64,000 bases of DNA from Tubiluchus corallicola (taxonomy: Eukaryota; Priapulida; Priapulimorpha; Priapulimorphida; Tubiluchidae). Where the stretch lies: contig JAQGDQ010000177.1 of NCBI GenBank assembly GCA_030141605.1, forward strand, positions 62,001 to 126,000, written 5' to 3'. Position numbers and translations under genes: made by a program. The notes below the pieces were generated by a model. That model was not told the DNA's origin. It did not search any database and worked only from the letters and a program-made list of their open reading frames with translations. Of the stretch, positions 31,501 through 37,500 are shown in pieces (position 1 is the first letter of the stretch; every line of letters starts with the position of its first letter).

Positions 31501-34500
31501 TATTTTTTTGGAGAATAAGCATGACATTCCTCAAATTCAATGTTCGTCGGTGACACATCTTCAGAAACTTGCTTAATTTACTTTTTACGTTCAGAATAGT
31601 TTTGTGAATAAGTATTTATTTTCATTGCTTAATGTATTTTAACATTCCTTTTAGATCAAATTTGGCTTTTAATTTAATAATTTTGAGCTTATCAAACAAT
31701 AATAAATAAGTCTACTTCGAGTGTATGTGCATGTAAGCACTATAGCTTAGAACTAACCATAACTTAGTAGAATCACACAAAAACTGCATTTGATATGATT
31801 TACCTAGTATGAGTTCTATAACTGTTTCAAGGATGTTTTAGCTCTATTATGGATCTAAAAAGAGATCTTTACCTGCTTAAAAAATTTATAAGTAGATTCT
31901 AGCAGGCTAGTCAGTTTTTTGAGAGCAAATATAAATTAAAAACAGCTGTGTAAATTCCAGTTCAATCAAAATACTGAGATGTACTTACTTATATCCATGC
32001 AGTTGCATAAACTGTTCCTGGTTTTAGTAGTTTTACATTTTATTTCTTATAATGGCAAAAGCAAAGCAGACAGAAACTTGATTTTTTTCATCCCAAAAAA
32101 TGCACTTAATTAACAGTTTTTGGAAGCTTGTGAATAAATTTTCAAAAACTTGGAACAGTAGCCTGAATTTTGTTGTCTGTTGCACCATGCATGTCCATCA
32201 AGACACTAACAATTACATGCTAATTTGAATGCTACAAGGTTTATATGTGCTCATTGTCCGAGAGTCCATAAAGGATTTTGTCAAGTAAATATTTAAGGTT
32301 TTTTAAGTCAAATAAAACACACTGATGTCAAAATTTGCTAAATATAGACTCTACTGTCAATGATTGTACATTCCTGTTGCATGTTGCAAGTACAAATGTA
32401 CTACCCATATTTTAGGGAAATTCTACATCCACAGTATCAATAAAAAACAAACAAATATTTTTGCAGACAGTTTAATTTACATTTAATAACAATTAACATT
32501 ACATTTTTACATTTTACATTTAAGCAACCGCCATAGAACTCTAAAAGCAAAGAATAACAACATTTTAAAAATGTCACAAACGCATTACAACGATTCTATT
32601 ACTTAAGGTAATTACAAACAGCCCAACCTTACATTCTACACGAAACATTTTATGCTGGATGCACATACAAATATAACGCAAAACCTGTAATATGTAACAC
32701 AATTATAATATTTAAGACCAATTTAACATATTCATTAGAACATCAACAAAGTAACCTAAATAAAATTTATATATAATAAATTGTTTGTAAAATCGAACGT
32801 TGTGACTTTCTTTATCAACATTTGGAAATCACATTTAATTTGTGAAAGCACGATCATAGACGCTAAAATTGTTAGAAGCCAAATAATCACTACAGGAAAT
32901 AAATTAATGAAAAATTAAAAAAAAACATGACATTACATTTTTCGGCTGAGTAATGCTCTTATCACCAGACATATAATCAAAAAAGTTAAAAAATTGATAC
33001 ATAAACTACTTCACAACTTACCAACTTACCTACTTATATATACAGCTTAGTAATGCATATCAGTTCTAAGCAAAGCAGTAGCTAAAATTTTCAAAATTAC
33101 GAAATAAACCAACACATAAAATTGCAGATAACACCATCTGGGTTTTGAAGCACTTTTTTAAATAATTAAACACGTATCAACAGCTGATAAGTCGAAGCTT
33201 AAACAACCCATCAATTATTCATGTATTCATGTATGTGTACATATAAAAAAATTGTTAATATGTAAGACTAAACAGAAACATTGTAACCATGTAACATCTT
33301 CTGATAATGTATTCTTTAGTCTGGCAGCACAGATTGTTGTCTAGTGCTATTAGTCTAGTCTATCCTAGTCTTGCCTGATCTGCTAGATTTTATTAATTGT
33401 TTTAACTTTGTTGAGCTGAGTAAAAGTGAGTAAACTTCAGAATAGTTGTCTAGTGCCATTGGCCTAATCTATCGTAGTATTGTCTGATCTCCCAGTTTCG
33501 ATTTAATCGTTTTACCTTTGAGTTGAGTTGAGTAAAAGTGAGTAAATTTCAGCACTTACGTTGTTATCTAGTGCTATTAATCTAGTCTATCCGAGTTTTG
33601 CCTGGTCTGCCAGATTTTATTTAACTGTTTTAATTTTGAGTTGAGTTGAGTAAAGGTGAGTAAATTGCAGCACTTAGATTGTTGTCTAGTACTAGTAATC
33701 TAGGCAATCCGAGTCTTGTCTAGTTTGTTTGCCAGGTTTTATTTAGTTGCTTTAGCTGTGAGTTGAGTAAAAAAAGGTGAGTAAATTTCAGCTCTTAGAC
33801 TGTTGTCTAGTGCTGTCAACCCGAGTTTTGTCTGGTCTGTTTGCCAGATTTTATTTAAGTGCTAACTTCAACCGCTAGTGACATACATTTTATAAACATT
33901 TTTCTTTTTAAGATGACAAAACTGTAAAACGTATAATATATTTAAACAAGAAACATTTTTGTCTACATACGTACTCTCTTAAGTGATATGTAACTTCAAA
34001 TAAAACTGTAGACTAGTTTCCTAAGCATAAACACGTGGCAGTATGTAGCGGCTATCAGCAAGTGGCATGTAATAATTAGAAAATATTGCGCCTTGTTCTT
34101 CACTGTGAAATGATTTACCAGGTGTAATAAGGCTCATTCGATTAATGTCTGAAATTGTTTTAAAATACATAGTTCCAGGGGGTTCTGGGCAATCATTTTC
34201 ATCAATATATGGAAATGATTCACATTCATCAACAAAAGCCAGATTATCATGGCCAACAGGGTGTCTAGAAGATTTGATAAGGTTATCATGATTTTCAGTA
34301 TCAACAGTGGCTTTTTGCACATACTCTTTAAAAAAAGGTTTTCTTACAGTGAGACCATTTGCCATAGGCTCACCTAGGTTATTTTGCAAGATTTGATCAT
34401 CCCAAGTCGAAGAATAGTCTGCTTTTATACCGCTGTTATTTACAGTGAAAGGAAAAGCTTTTGTGGACTGCTTTTCAAGCAAAAGTGTATCACACTGGGT

Positions 34501-37500
34501 ATACAAACTTTCACCGTCATCAGAAGAGATCGAATCCAGATCCGAAATACCGCTGTCCACCAATTCTTTTAAGCTGTGATCACATCCGTTCTCGTCATAA
34601 TCGGACAATAAAAAGTCAAGTTCACTGTTATCATCACTTTCTTCATGGTGGAATGATGAGTAGGGATTAGATTTGTTGTAAGGAATACTACTCATGCGAG
34701 CATTAGAGCAAACATTAGACCATGTTTTACTCTCAGGCTCTGACCACTCATCATCACTGGACTTTAAACACAGCATGCCAAGGCAGCGGCTAAAGAAATT
34801 AGATAAAATCCCTCGTTTCGACGAACTGCTGCTGCCGTCACTACATTCATCATCAACATCAGATATCAAGTTACTTCGACTGTTGCAAAAGGTCCCATAA
34901 TTCACATGAACGTTATCAGTCTTGTTATAAGACGTTACAATTTTCTGAACAGAGTTATCTGTTTTACAAGGAGTAGAAAAATGTATTTGTTGCAATGGAC
35001 CACTTTGTTTGTTTCTTCTAGAATCCCCACGGACTAGTTTCTTTTCCTGCAAAAAGATTTCCTCGCAGGAAGTCTGCAAATTACGTAAGGTCTGTGATTG
35101 GTTGCTATCTGGAAAAGTCTCCCAATGATGCTTATCCTCAAGATTCATTGGCTCAACAGCAATTTCATCACTTTCCTTCTCCTTCGAAGCATCAAAAACA
35201 CTTAAACTGTCTTCCCATTTTGTTAGATTAAAATAACTGAAGAAGCCACTATACTTTTCATAGTCATCATCAATTTCGTCATTTGATAAACATTTGTTTT
35301 TTGTTTCCCACACAGAATCATTGCTTTTATCATCTGTTTCATATCCACTTTCGGTGCCAGAGAAACTGTCACACGGTACAGTATTGTTACTGTAACCATG
35401 GCAACAAAGATCATCAGGCTCCTCAATAATGGTGTCCAGTTTGTGGCAATCATGACTACTGTGATCAATGGTGTAGGACTGAGTAGAATGGCATATTGAG
35501 CTTTGCACTGATGATTTATCTTGATTACTAAAATGACTGCCTGTACAGGATACAAACAGATTCTTCCAACACTCTTAATTTGGTTTGGTGACTCAAGATC
35601 AAAATTCTCAAATTTTCAGAATTAAAAAGTGATCGCACCCGAAAACGCGCACACTCTAAGACAGCTGCATGCACTGTCACGCAGAAGTGAAGACGAAAAA
35701 AACAAAAACAAAACTGCGGCATAAAATAAAAGCTTTGCACTTTGTTTATACATTATCCAAAAGTAGAAACAAAATGAGACACTTATCATGTGTGTGTGTG
35801 GGTGGGTGCAAATTTGTGATGTGCATTAATGGCATGCAAGATGAGCAAAACACCAAATATACACAAATACGAAGCAAATATGTCAACCAACACTAAGCGC
35901 CGATAAAAAAATTTTCCACTGTCACAGTGCAGGTACTGATATAATGGTATATCATGCTAAAAATACTTACCGTCATGAGAAATTTTGCCACATTATTTTT
36001 GTGACATCCAGATTTAGTAACATTATATTGATAAAAAACCTACTCTGGAATTTTGACTGTGTTCCAACCAGAACAAAACTGGTATAAAATGCATATTAAA
36101 AAAATAAAAAATAATTTGACAAAAACAAATGTGCATATAACTAAATGACTATGTATGCATATTTGTTATCAGCAAGCTTCAACACTTACACTGTTTAATT
36201 AGAAACTTTTTAGTTTAATAATAGATCTTAATGCGATTTCCTTCAAGACTCACCCATTAATTCTTTTAATCTGGCCGACCTTAACTGCATACGATGGTTA
36301 AATTCTGTCATCTCATCTGCTTCTTCATCACCTGAAATACAGTTACATAAACTGCTAAGTAGGCTAGTTTGTCAAGCAGTGCGGCAAGGCCAAAATGTGC
36401 TAAAAAATTTGGCATCTTAAATTACTAAAAAATGGAAAACCTTAGAAAACAGTTTTTAGTGTCATTTAAAAGCCTCTGAAATTCACCTTTATTTCATAAA
36501 CAGAAGGCACATTTGATATCACATAGTCACATAGTAACAAATAATGTAGTCATAAATACAAATGTGTGCTTGCAAACTAAAATTGTCCATAAGTCGGCAT
36601 AGTTAAAACTACGTTATGATGCTTCAAAGTAGAATGCACCACAATGTTGATTTTTTGCTATTTATAAAAAAATGCTAAATATACTGGACTTCCACCAAAT
36701 TGTCAAGAAAATGATTAAAAAATACTACAAATCTATTTTATAACCCACTACTCACTTTTGTCTAGAAAATTGTACTACACAGTTAAGAAAAATTTGTATT
36801 TTCAAATTCCGGTAGTAGCTGACCAGAAGCAATCATTTTGCTTCGGGTTATTTCTGTTGCGAAACCCAGATCTTCGCCAGAAAGAGCTACTGGATCTAAA
36901 CAAACTTAAAAAAGTGTTTTGCAGAAACACGACAAAAAACAATGGCTAACTTTAACAGTGATTTTTTCAAGGTTATGCTTTTCTGTGCTTAGCATGTACC
37001 TCAACTTCAACGTGGATTATCACAGCTCAGAAATAACATAGAGCAATGAACTTGGTATCAAAATGGTCCTCATGAAATGGAGATTCTGGATATGTGAATA
37101 ACCAGAAAAACTTAATTGCTCACTTATGGACGATTTTGTTAGGCAAGCACACATATAATGATAGAATTTATTAGATTCTGTAGATTCTGCAATATTTCAC
37201 TGAAGTAACAGGTAACATGTCTAAAAATGTTCTAGTAATAGCTGTATACATTTTATTGGAAATGCCAAAATTTATGTTACATGTAATTTACCCATATCAG
37301 CTGGACATTTCTCGACAGCATCTCTTACAGCTGCAATCCACTGTTTCTTTGCTTTGCTGGACGTACACACCATCTCATACATCTCCGGATCTTTGCGATT
37401 GGATGAGATCAGATAGAGACCACAGCTGTCATCTTTTGCGGCCTTTTCTCTCACTAATAATTTCTGCAGTGAGATGACGCCAGACTGCAACACAGAAAAT

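Follow-up and report, generated by a model that had tools for sequence, protein, structure and literature searches.

Onco-Lbc, a leukaemia truncation of human AKAP13, ends at residue 2346, with its DH-PH region put at residues 1972-2342, and is characterized in two articles as monomeric and as having constitutive guanine nucleotide exchange factor (GEF) activity (PMC4156082, PMC4232260). The C-terminal region of GEF-H1 (ARHGEF2) is described as autoinhibitory in a review that calls the splice variants of this protein largely unexplored (PMC12475976), an alternatively spliced C terminus of p115-RhoGEF (ARHGEF1) has been published (PMC2395381), and the Lbc RhoGEFs are counted as seven in a further article (PMC5988292). 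Here we examined a stretch of 64,000 nucleotides from the priapulid Tubiluchus corallicola (contig JAQGDQ010000177.1, positions 62,001 to 126,000 of the forward strand; called the window in what follows, and part of contig C462 in a genome of 343.5 Mb and 2344 contigs), which carries a RhoGEF gene on its minus strand and, within one of the introns of this gene, a long open frame that an earlier note had read from the letters as an alternative terminal exon. On the strength of its sequence we consider it on balance likely that this frame serves an Lbc-family RhoGEF gene as an alternative last exon of the skipped type, which would give an onco-Lbc-like form of the protein.

The frame runs from stop to stop over 35574..34021 on the minus strand (517 codons, then TAG) and sits in the 7.6-kb intron between exon 23 (36331-36254) and exon 24 (28676-28570), these numbers being the count of the earlier note, which we use as labels. 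The elements on which the reading turns are the following, with splice scores taken from a generic matrix.

34021..35540, minus strand: candidate alternative last exon, completing a split Gly codon and continuing for 505 codons, TAG at 34023-34021
35541..35542, minus strand: acceptor AG of the candidate exon, score 6.7, the top of 122 AGs between 36253 and 34021
36254..36331, minus strand: exon 23, 78 nt, phase 1 to phase 1, immediately behind the PH domain, with a donor that could serve the tail or exon 24
28570..28676, minus strand: exon 24 of the ordinary form, read from the sequence as the start of a presumed post-PH coiled coil, acceptor score 8.0
34372..34373, minus strand: internal donor GT, score 6.9, with which the exon would end at 34374 in phase 1
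33850..33855, minus strand: first AATAAA after the stop, a possible poly(A) signal, 165 nt after the stop
33331..33814, minus strand: 118-bp tandem array of 4.2 copies, downstream of the stop, with more AATAAA/ATTAAA words inside

With 35540 as its first base behind the acceptor, the candidate exon measures 1520 nt. The end of exon 23, at 36254, is in phase 1 and its donor scores 6.5; the last G of this exon completes a Gly codon at the junction, after which 505 more codons, here called the tail, lead to the stop; the tail shares its entry phase 1 with exon 24, whose acceptor stands at 28676. Among these 505 residues the first in-frame Met stands at position 131. The earlier note had described a long open frame on the strand of the gene with no Met near its start, a clean acceptor at 35541 and a phase completing that of exon 23, all of which we recovered, and its guess of a poly(A) site near 33850 agrees with the AATAAA at 33855-33850, which just precedes the tandem array.

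Both the length and the codon content of the frame point to its being a coding exon, which we hold to be very probable. When 60 sequences of 64 kb were simulated with an order-3 Markov model, the longest open reading frame reached 205 codons, compared to the 517 codons that stay open here at a stop density of 0.066. Scored with a codon table built from 4339 codons of four RhoGEF-bearing frames of the same genome (L001, L002, L003 and L005), the 505 codons of the tail reached 0.104 per codon, against an average of -0.105 in 168 noncoding frames of 505 codons (standard deviation 0.054, maximum 0.029); in the five remaining frames of this DNA the score was negative throughout. With this table the 130 codons ahead of the first Met scored 0.132, a value reached by 6 of 741 null segments, and the 116 codons behind the internal donor 0.107, reached by 5 of 828. 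Because coding-like codons precede the first Met, the frame needs an upstream exon or a start codon other than AUG.

The tail is rich in Ser (15.0%), Asp (10.1%) and Glu (7.3%), as had been noted before, with an isoelectric point (pI) of 4.55 and 88 Asp and Glu residues versus 43 Lys and Arg. The DSG and ESG motifs reported in the earlier note are present once each, but a motif count over the 505 residues found no DSGxxS. Compared with shuffled sequences, acidic-W (P = 0.033), relaxed DSG (P = 0.029) and CK2-like patterns (P = 0.029) were nominally enriched and LxxIxE was not (P = 0.11); with eight patterns tried, we did not take these nominal enrichments as signal. Residues 243-259 form the most hydrophobic 17-residue stretch of the tail and hold two Cys with basic residues around them; as a guess, this patch may bind membrane.

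Searched against its own genome (E values up to 10; one candidate scored), the tail matched only itself, with no further copies and no parent gene, and therefore there is no sign of a recent retrocopy or a mobile element. Neither the PDB sequences (E up to 10) nor NCBIfam (E up to 5) returned a match. The one Pfam match, DUF6149 (E = 0.08), scored 13.2 bits with a cut-off of 27 and was taken as chance. A peptide pattern of the tail was met in 3 viral and 13 prokaryotic contig stretches, none of which proved a relative by tblastn, a search that reaches close relatives only. A search of the 64-kb window with Rfam at the gathering threshold gave no RNA family.

The host gene extends on the minus strand from above 59 kb down to near 805, where its probable last exon ends. 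In a Pfam scan six of ten of its exons matched a family at E <= 0.1 (RhoGEF in three, PH_16 in two and C1_1 in one), several of these matches lying below the curated cut-offs and the remaining four exons being without match. All three scanned DH exons matched RhoGEF (PF00621; E = 1.9e-12, 0.015 for the second, which is below the cut-off, and 1.1e-8), and two of the three scanned PH-region exons matched PH_16 (E = 6.5e-15, and 0.00096, below the cut-off), the exon at 39122-39244 giving no PH_16 match in that scan.

53139..53262, minus strand: initial piece of a probable C1 zinc finger
46775..46956, minus strand: DH exon, first piece of the RhoGEF domain, RhoGEF 1.9e-12; closest solved chains ARHGEF2 and AKAP13
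45097..45264, minus strand: DH exon, third piece of the RhoGEF domain, RhoGEF 1.1e-8
37292..37484, minus strand: last PH exon, PH_16 6.5e-15; closest solved chains ARHGEF18, ARHGEF28 and AKAP13
805..1545, minus strand: probable last exon of the ordinary form, from the open frame 1611-808 and the gene model

Because of the RhoGEF and PH_16 matches and of these closest chains, the sequence of the host gene places it in the Lbc family of RhoGEFs, in agreement with the earlier assignment. The C1_1 match, found in one exon (E = 0.0079), is below the cut-off and tied with Cript, and the following exon has no C1 match; an N-terminal C1 finger is the arrangement of the AKAP13, ARHGEF2 and ARHGEF28 type. 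The resemblance of exon 24 to a coiled coil is by eye only, with no Pfam family matched. Our dynamic-programming gene models over-predict small exons and take in repeat-derived ones (36889-36824; 54865-54063), and therefore we claim no total gene length; the 1387-codon total and the exon number 23 given before were not reproduced, these crude models leaving the 5' exons unfixed. A dispersed repeat present in two RhoGEF introns (36751-36960 and 47729-47946; 78% identical over 144 columns, with a short second piece) misleads the models at 36889-36824, and the stretch 54993-54062 on the minus strand, also in a RhoGEF intron, holds consecutive frames of 138 and 148 codons with a guanine plus cytosine fraction of 0.505 and, judged by eye, looks like a retroelement remnant.

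A second gene of this genome has a bearing on the layout. The last PH exon used as query found itself and one other place, on contig C48 (35% identity over 40 residues, E = 0.007), near which there are two RhoGEF matches on the same strand, and the DH exon of C48 is closest to ARHGEF11 and ARHGEF12. Downstream on the strand of that gene, behind exons resembling a coiled coil by eye, lies an acidic frame of 632 codons (C48 20918-19023, or L012:2524-4419, minus strand; pI 4.07) with its first Met at residue 111 and with TTTTACAG about 19 bases inside its start. Its similarity to the tail is not significant (best E = 3.0). The C48 gene shares the DH-PH region with the host and seems to terminate in an acidic frame that is likewise long and lacks an early Met; this frame follows the coiled-coil-like exons, whereas the tail frame of the host precedes them. 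If the C48 frame is an end exon, then long acidic end exons of this headless kind occur in the RhoGEF genes of this species, which would lend plausibility to an alternative-end layout and make the tail less exceptional.

Several observations weigh against the frame being an alternative last exon of the host gene. The fit in phase with exon 23 is weak evidence, because 8 of the 20 modelled donors (up to and including that of exon 23) end in phase 1 and would also fit, and a strong donor lies inside the frame at 34374 (6.9, G/GTGAGC). When left unconstrained, the gene finder built the frame in as a cassette closed by a weak donor at 34035 (score 1.1) and not as an end, and when acceptor 35540 was barred it reached the same frame at 35478 by way of an added small exon; this program is unable to weigh alternative ends, because it returns one chain only. 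The score restricted to synonymous codons is weak (0.006 per codon versus -0.016 +/- 0.011 in 150 null frames with a maximum of 0.012), and therefore the coding likeness comes mainly from amino-acid content and length. A codon table made from exons of the window gives the tail 0.041 compared to 0.246 for those exons, on which it was trained; 261 other minus-strand open reading frames of at least 40 codons average -0.24 +/- 0.16 with this table, and single short noncoding ones reach 0.27. To these is added the lack of any homologue of the tail in Pfam, NCBIfam, PDB, the own genome and the viral and prokaryotic contigs. The alternative terminal exon of the earlier note is upheld as to the coding-like frame, the acceptor, the absence of an early Met, the phase and the Lbc host, but this agreement does not extend to the splicing to exon 23 or to the use as a last exon, which we keep conditional.

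Genes nested on the strand of their host are common, and the frame could be the last (or main) exon of such a gene, one that has a separate promoter and a short first exon lying either upstream or elsewhere within the RhoGEF introns, an explanation that we consider unlikely. The weakness of the phase argument speaks in its favour, as does a donor at 35971 on the minus strand (score 7.4), the best of the interval 36253-33500, which is located in the intron ahead of the tail and belongs to no assigned exon. However, when we collected first-exon candidates between 37290 and 35560 (Met-led, in phase 1 and with a donor score above 0; n = 16), 14 scored negative, including all eight located between exon 23 and the tail, the two others being a 4-codon candidate in a repeat (36836-36824, log-likelihood ratio 0.18) and a single Met codon within exon 23 (0.05), and none of the 16 ends at the donor 35971. 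Decidedly unlikely in our view is that the frame is an old 5'-truncated retrocopy or a lineage-specific open frame subject to little or no selection, outside any functional mRNA: the absence of homologues in the searched sets and the weak synonymous signal would be in line with this, and five RhoGEF matches in open frames of more than 1000 codons in this genome may mean that retrocopies are frequent, but 517 codons remain open at the stop density given above, the genome search gave no parent gene, and the best-scoring acceptor between 36253 and 34021 is close to where the frame opens. Finally, we judge it very unlikely that 35540-34374 is a symmetric cassette of 1167 nt (389 codons) that lengthens the linker between the PH domain and the coiled coil, keeping the latter, with the stop at 34021 read only in a longer form, since although the donor at 34374 resembles that of exon 23, its phase 1 fits exon 24 and the unconstrained gene model also made a cassette of the frame (with another, weak donor), the 116 codons past this donor are open and coding-like, which a pure cassette does not need, and the presence of one such donor word in about 1500 nt is by our estimate no rarity.

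Under the favoured reading of an alternative last exon, the acceptor at 35541 and a poly(A) site near 33850 would in some cells or stages beat splicing to exon 24. The resulting protein would keep the probable C1, the DH and the PH domains and the 26 residues of exon 23, followed by the acidic, probably disordered tail of 505 residues, and would be devoid of the coiled coil and of all that normally follows it. As the protein would lose its regulatory C terminus immediately past the PH domain, the likeliest outcome, by analogy with onco-Lbc, would be a GEF freed from C-terminal autoinhibition and dimerisation, to which the tail might add new targeting or phospho-control; the step from sequence to activity is drawn from this analogy. 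It is quite unlikely, in our opinion, that the locus carries a reversible, built-in version of the onco-Lbc lesion, in which the choice of last exon would trade the autoinhibitory C terminus for the acidic tail and the Cys-bearing patch 243-259 would hold the tail at membranes, yielding a membrane-held, microtubule-independent RhoGEF.

The likeness to the described systems is partial. Onco-Lbc keeps an Lbc-type DH-PH region and loses the rest of the C terminus, as the tail form would do (PMC4156082). It is nevertheless a leukaemia truncation in which most of the N terminus is also gone, whereas the tail form would arise by a normal choice of last exon, with its N terminus in place and 505 residues added. 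ARHGEF2 (GEF-H1) is among the closest solved matches of the first DH exon of the host, and the available portion of the review mentions no form of it with an acidic tail replacing the coiled coil (PMC12475976). Among the literature matches listed, taken by their titles and the starts of their abstracts, there was no alternative last exon in a C1-type Lbc GEF, the nearest case being lip, an alternatively spliced p115-RhoGEF. Lip is a truncation of p115-RhoGEF produced by a rearrangement in the course of transfection; the C terminus that differs is much shorter than the 505 residues of the tail, and p115-RhoGEF is of the RH type. The Galpha12-binding C-terminal region of AKAP-Lbc is said to be missing from invertebrate RhoGEFs (PMC5345129), and therefore not all of the vertebrate C-terminal control need apply here.

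Other features of the window and the genome were also observed. Tandem-repeat stretches at 12426-13349 (both strands) and 56955-57810 (three minus-strand frames) are open in several frames, of 174 to 298 codons. Elsewhere in the genome, open frames with lengths between 1068 and 1724 codons contain RhoGEF matches (L001, L002, L003, L005 and L006), one of these frames occurring twice on contig C1977 in opposite orientation. A RhoGEF fragment with identical score is found on 13 contigs (C457, C628, C2254 and ten others), on three of them at the same coordinates; it is a repeat, and the contigs are probably unpurged duplicates.

If this exon is used, the loss of the regulatory C terminus of an Lbc RhoGEF, known from oncogenic truncations, would also be a normal, regulated splice choice. 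The exon would then add to the protein a tail without relative in the searched sets, and would offer a natural test of what the C terminus of these RhoGEFs does.

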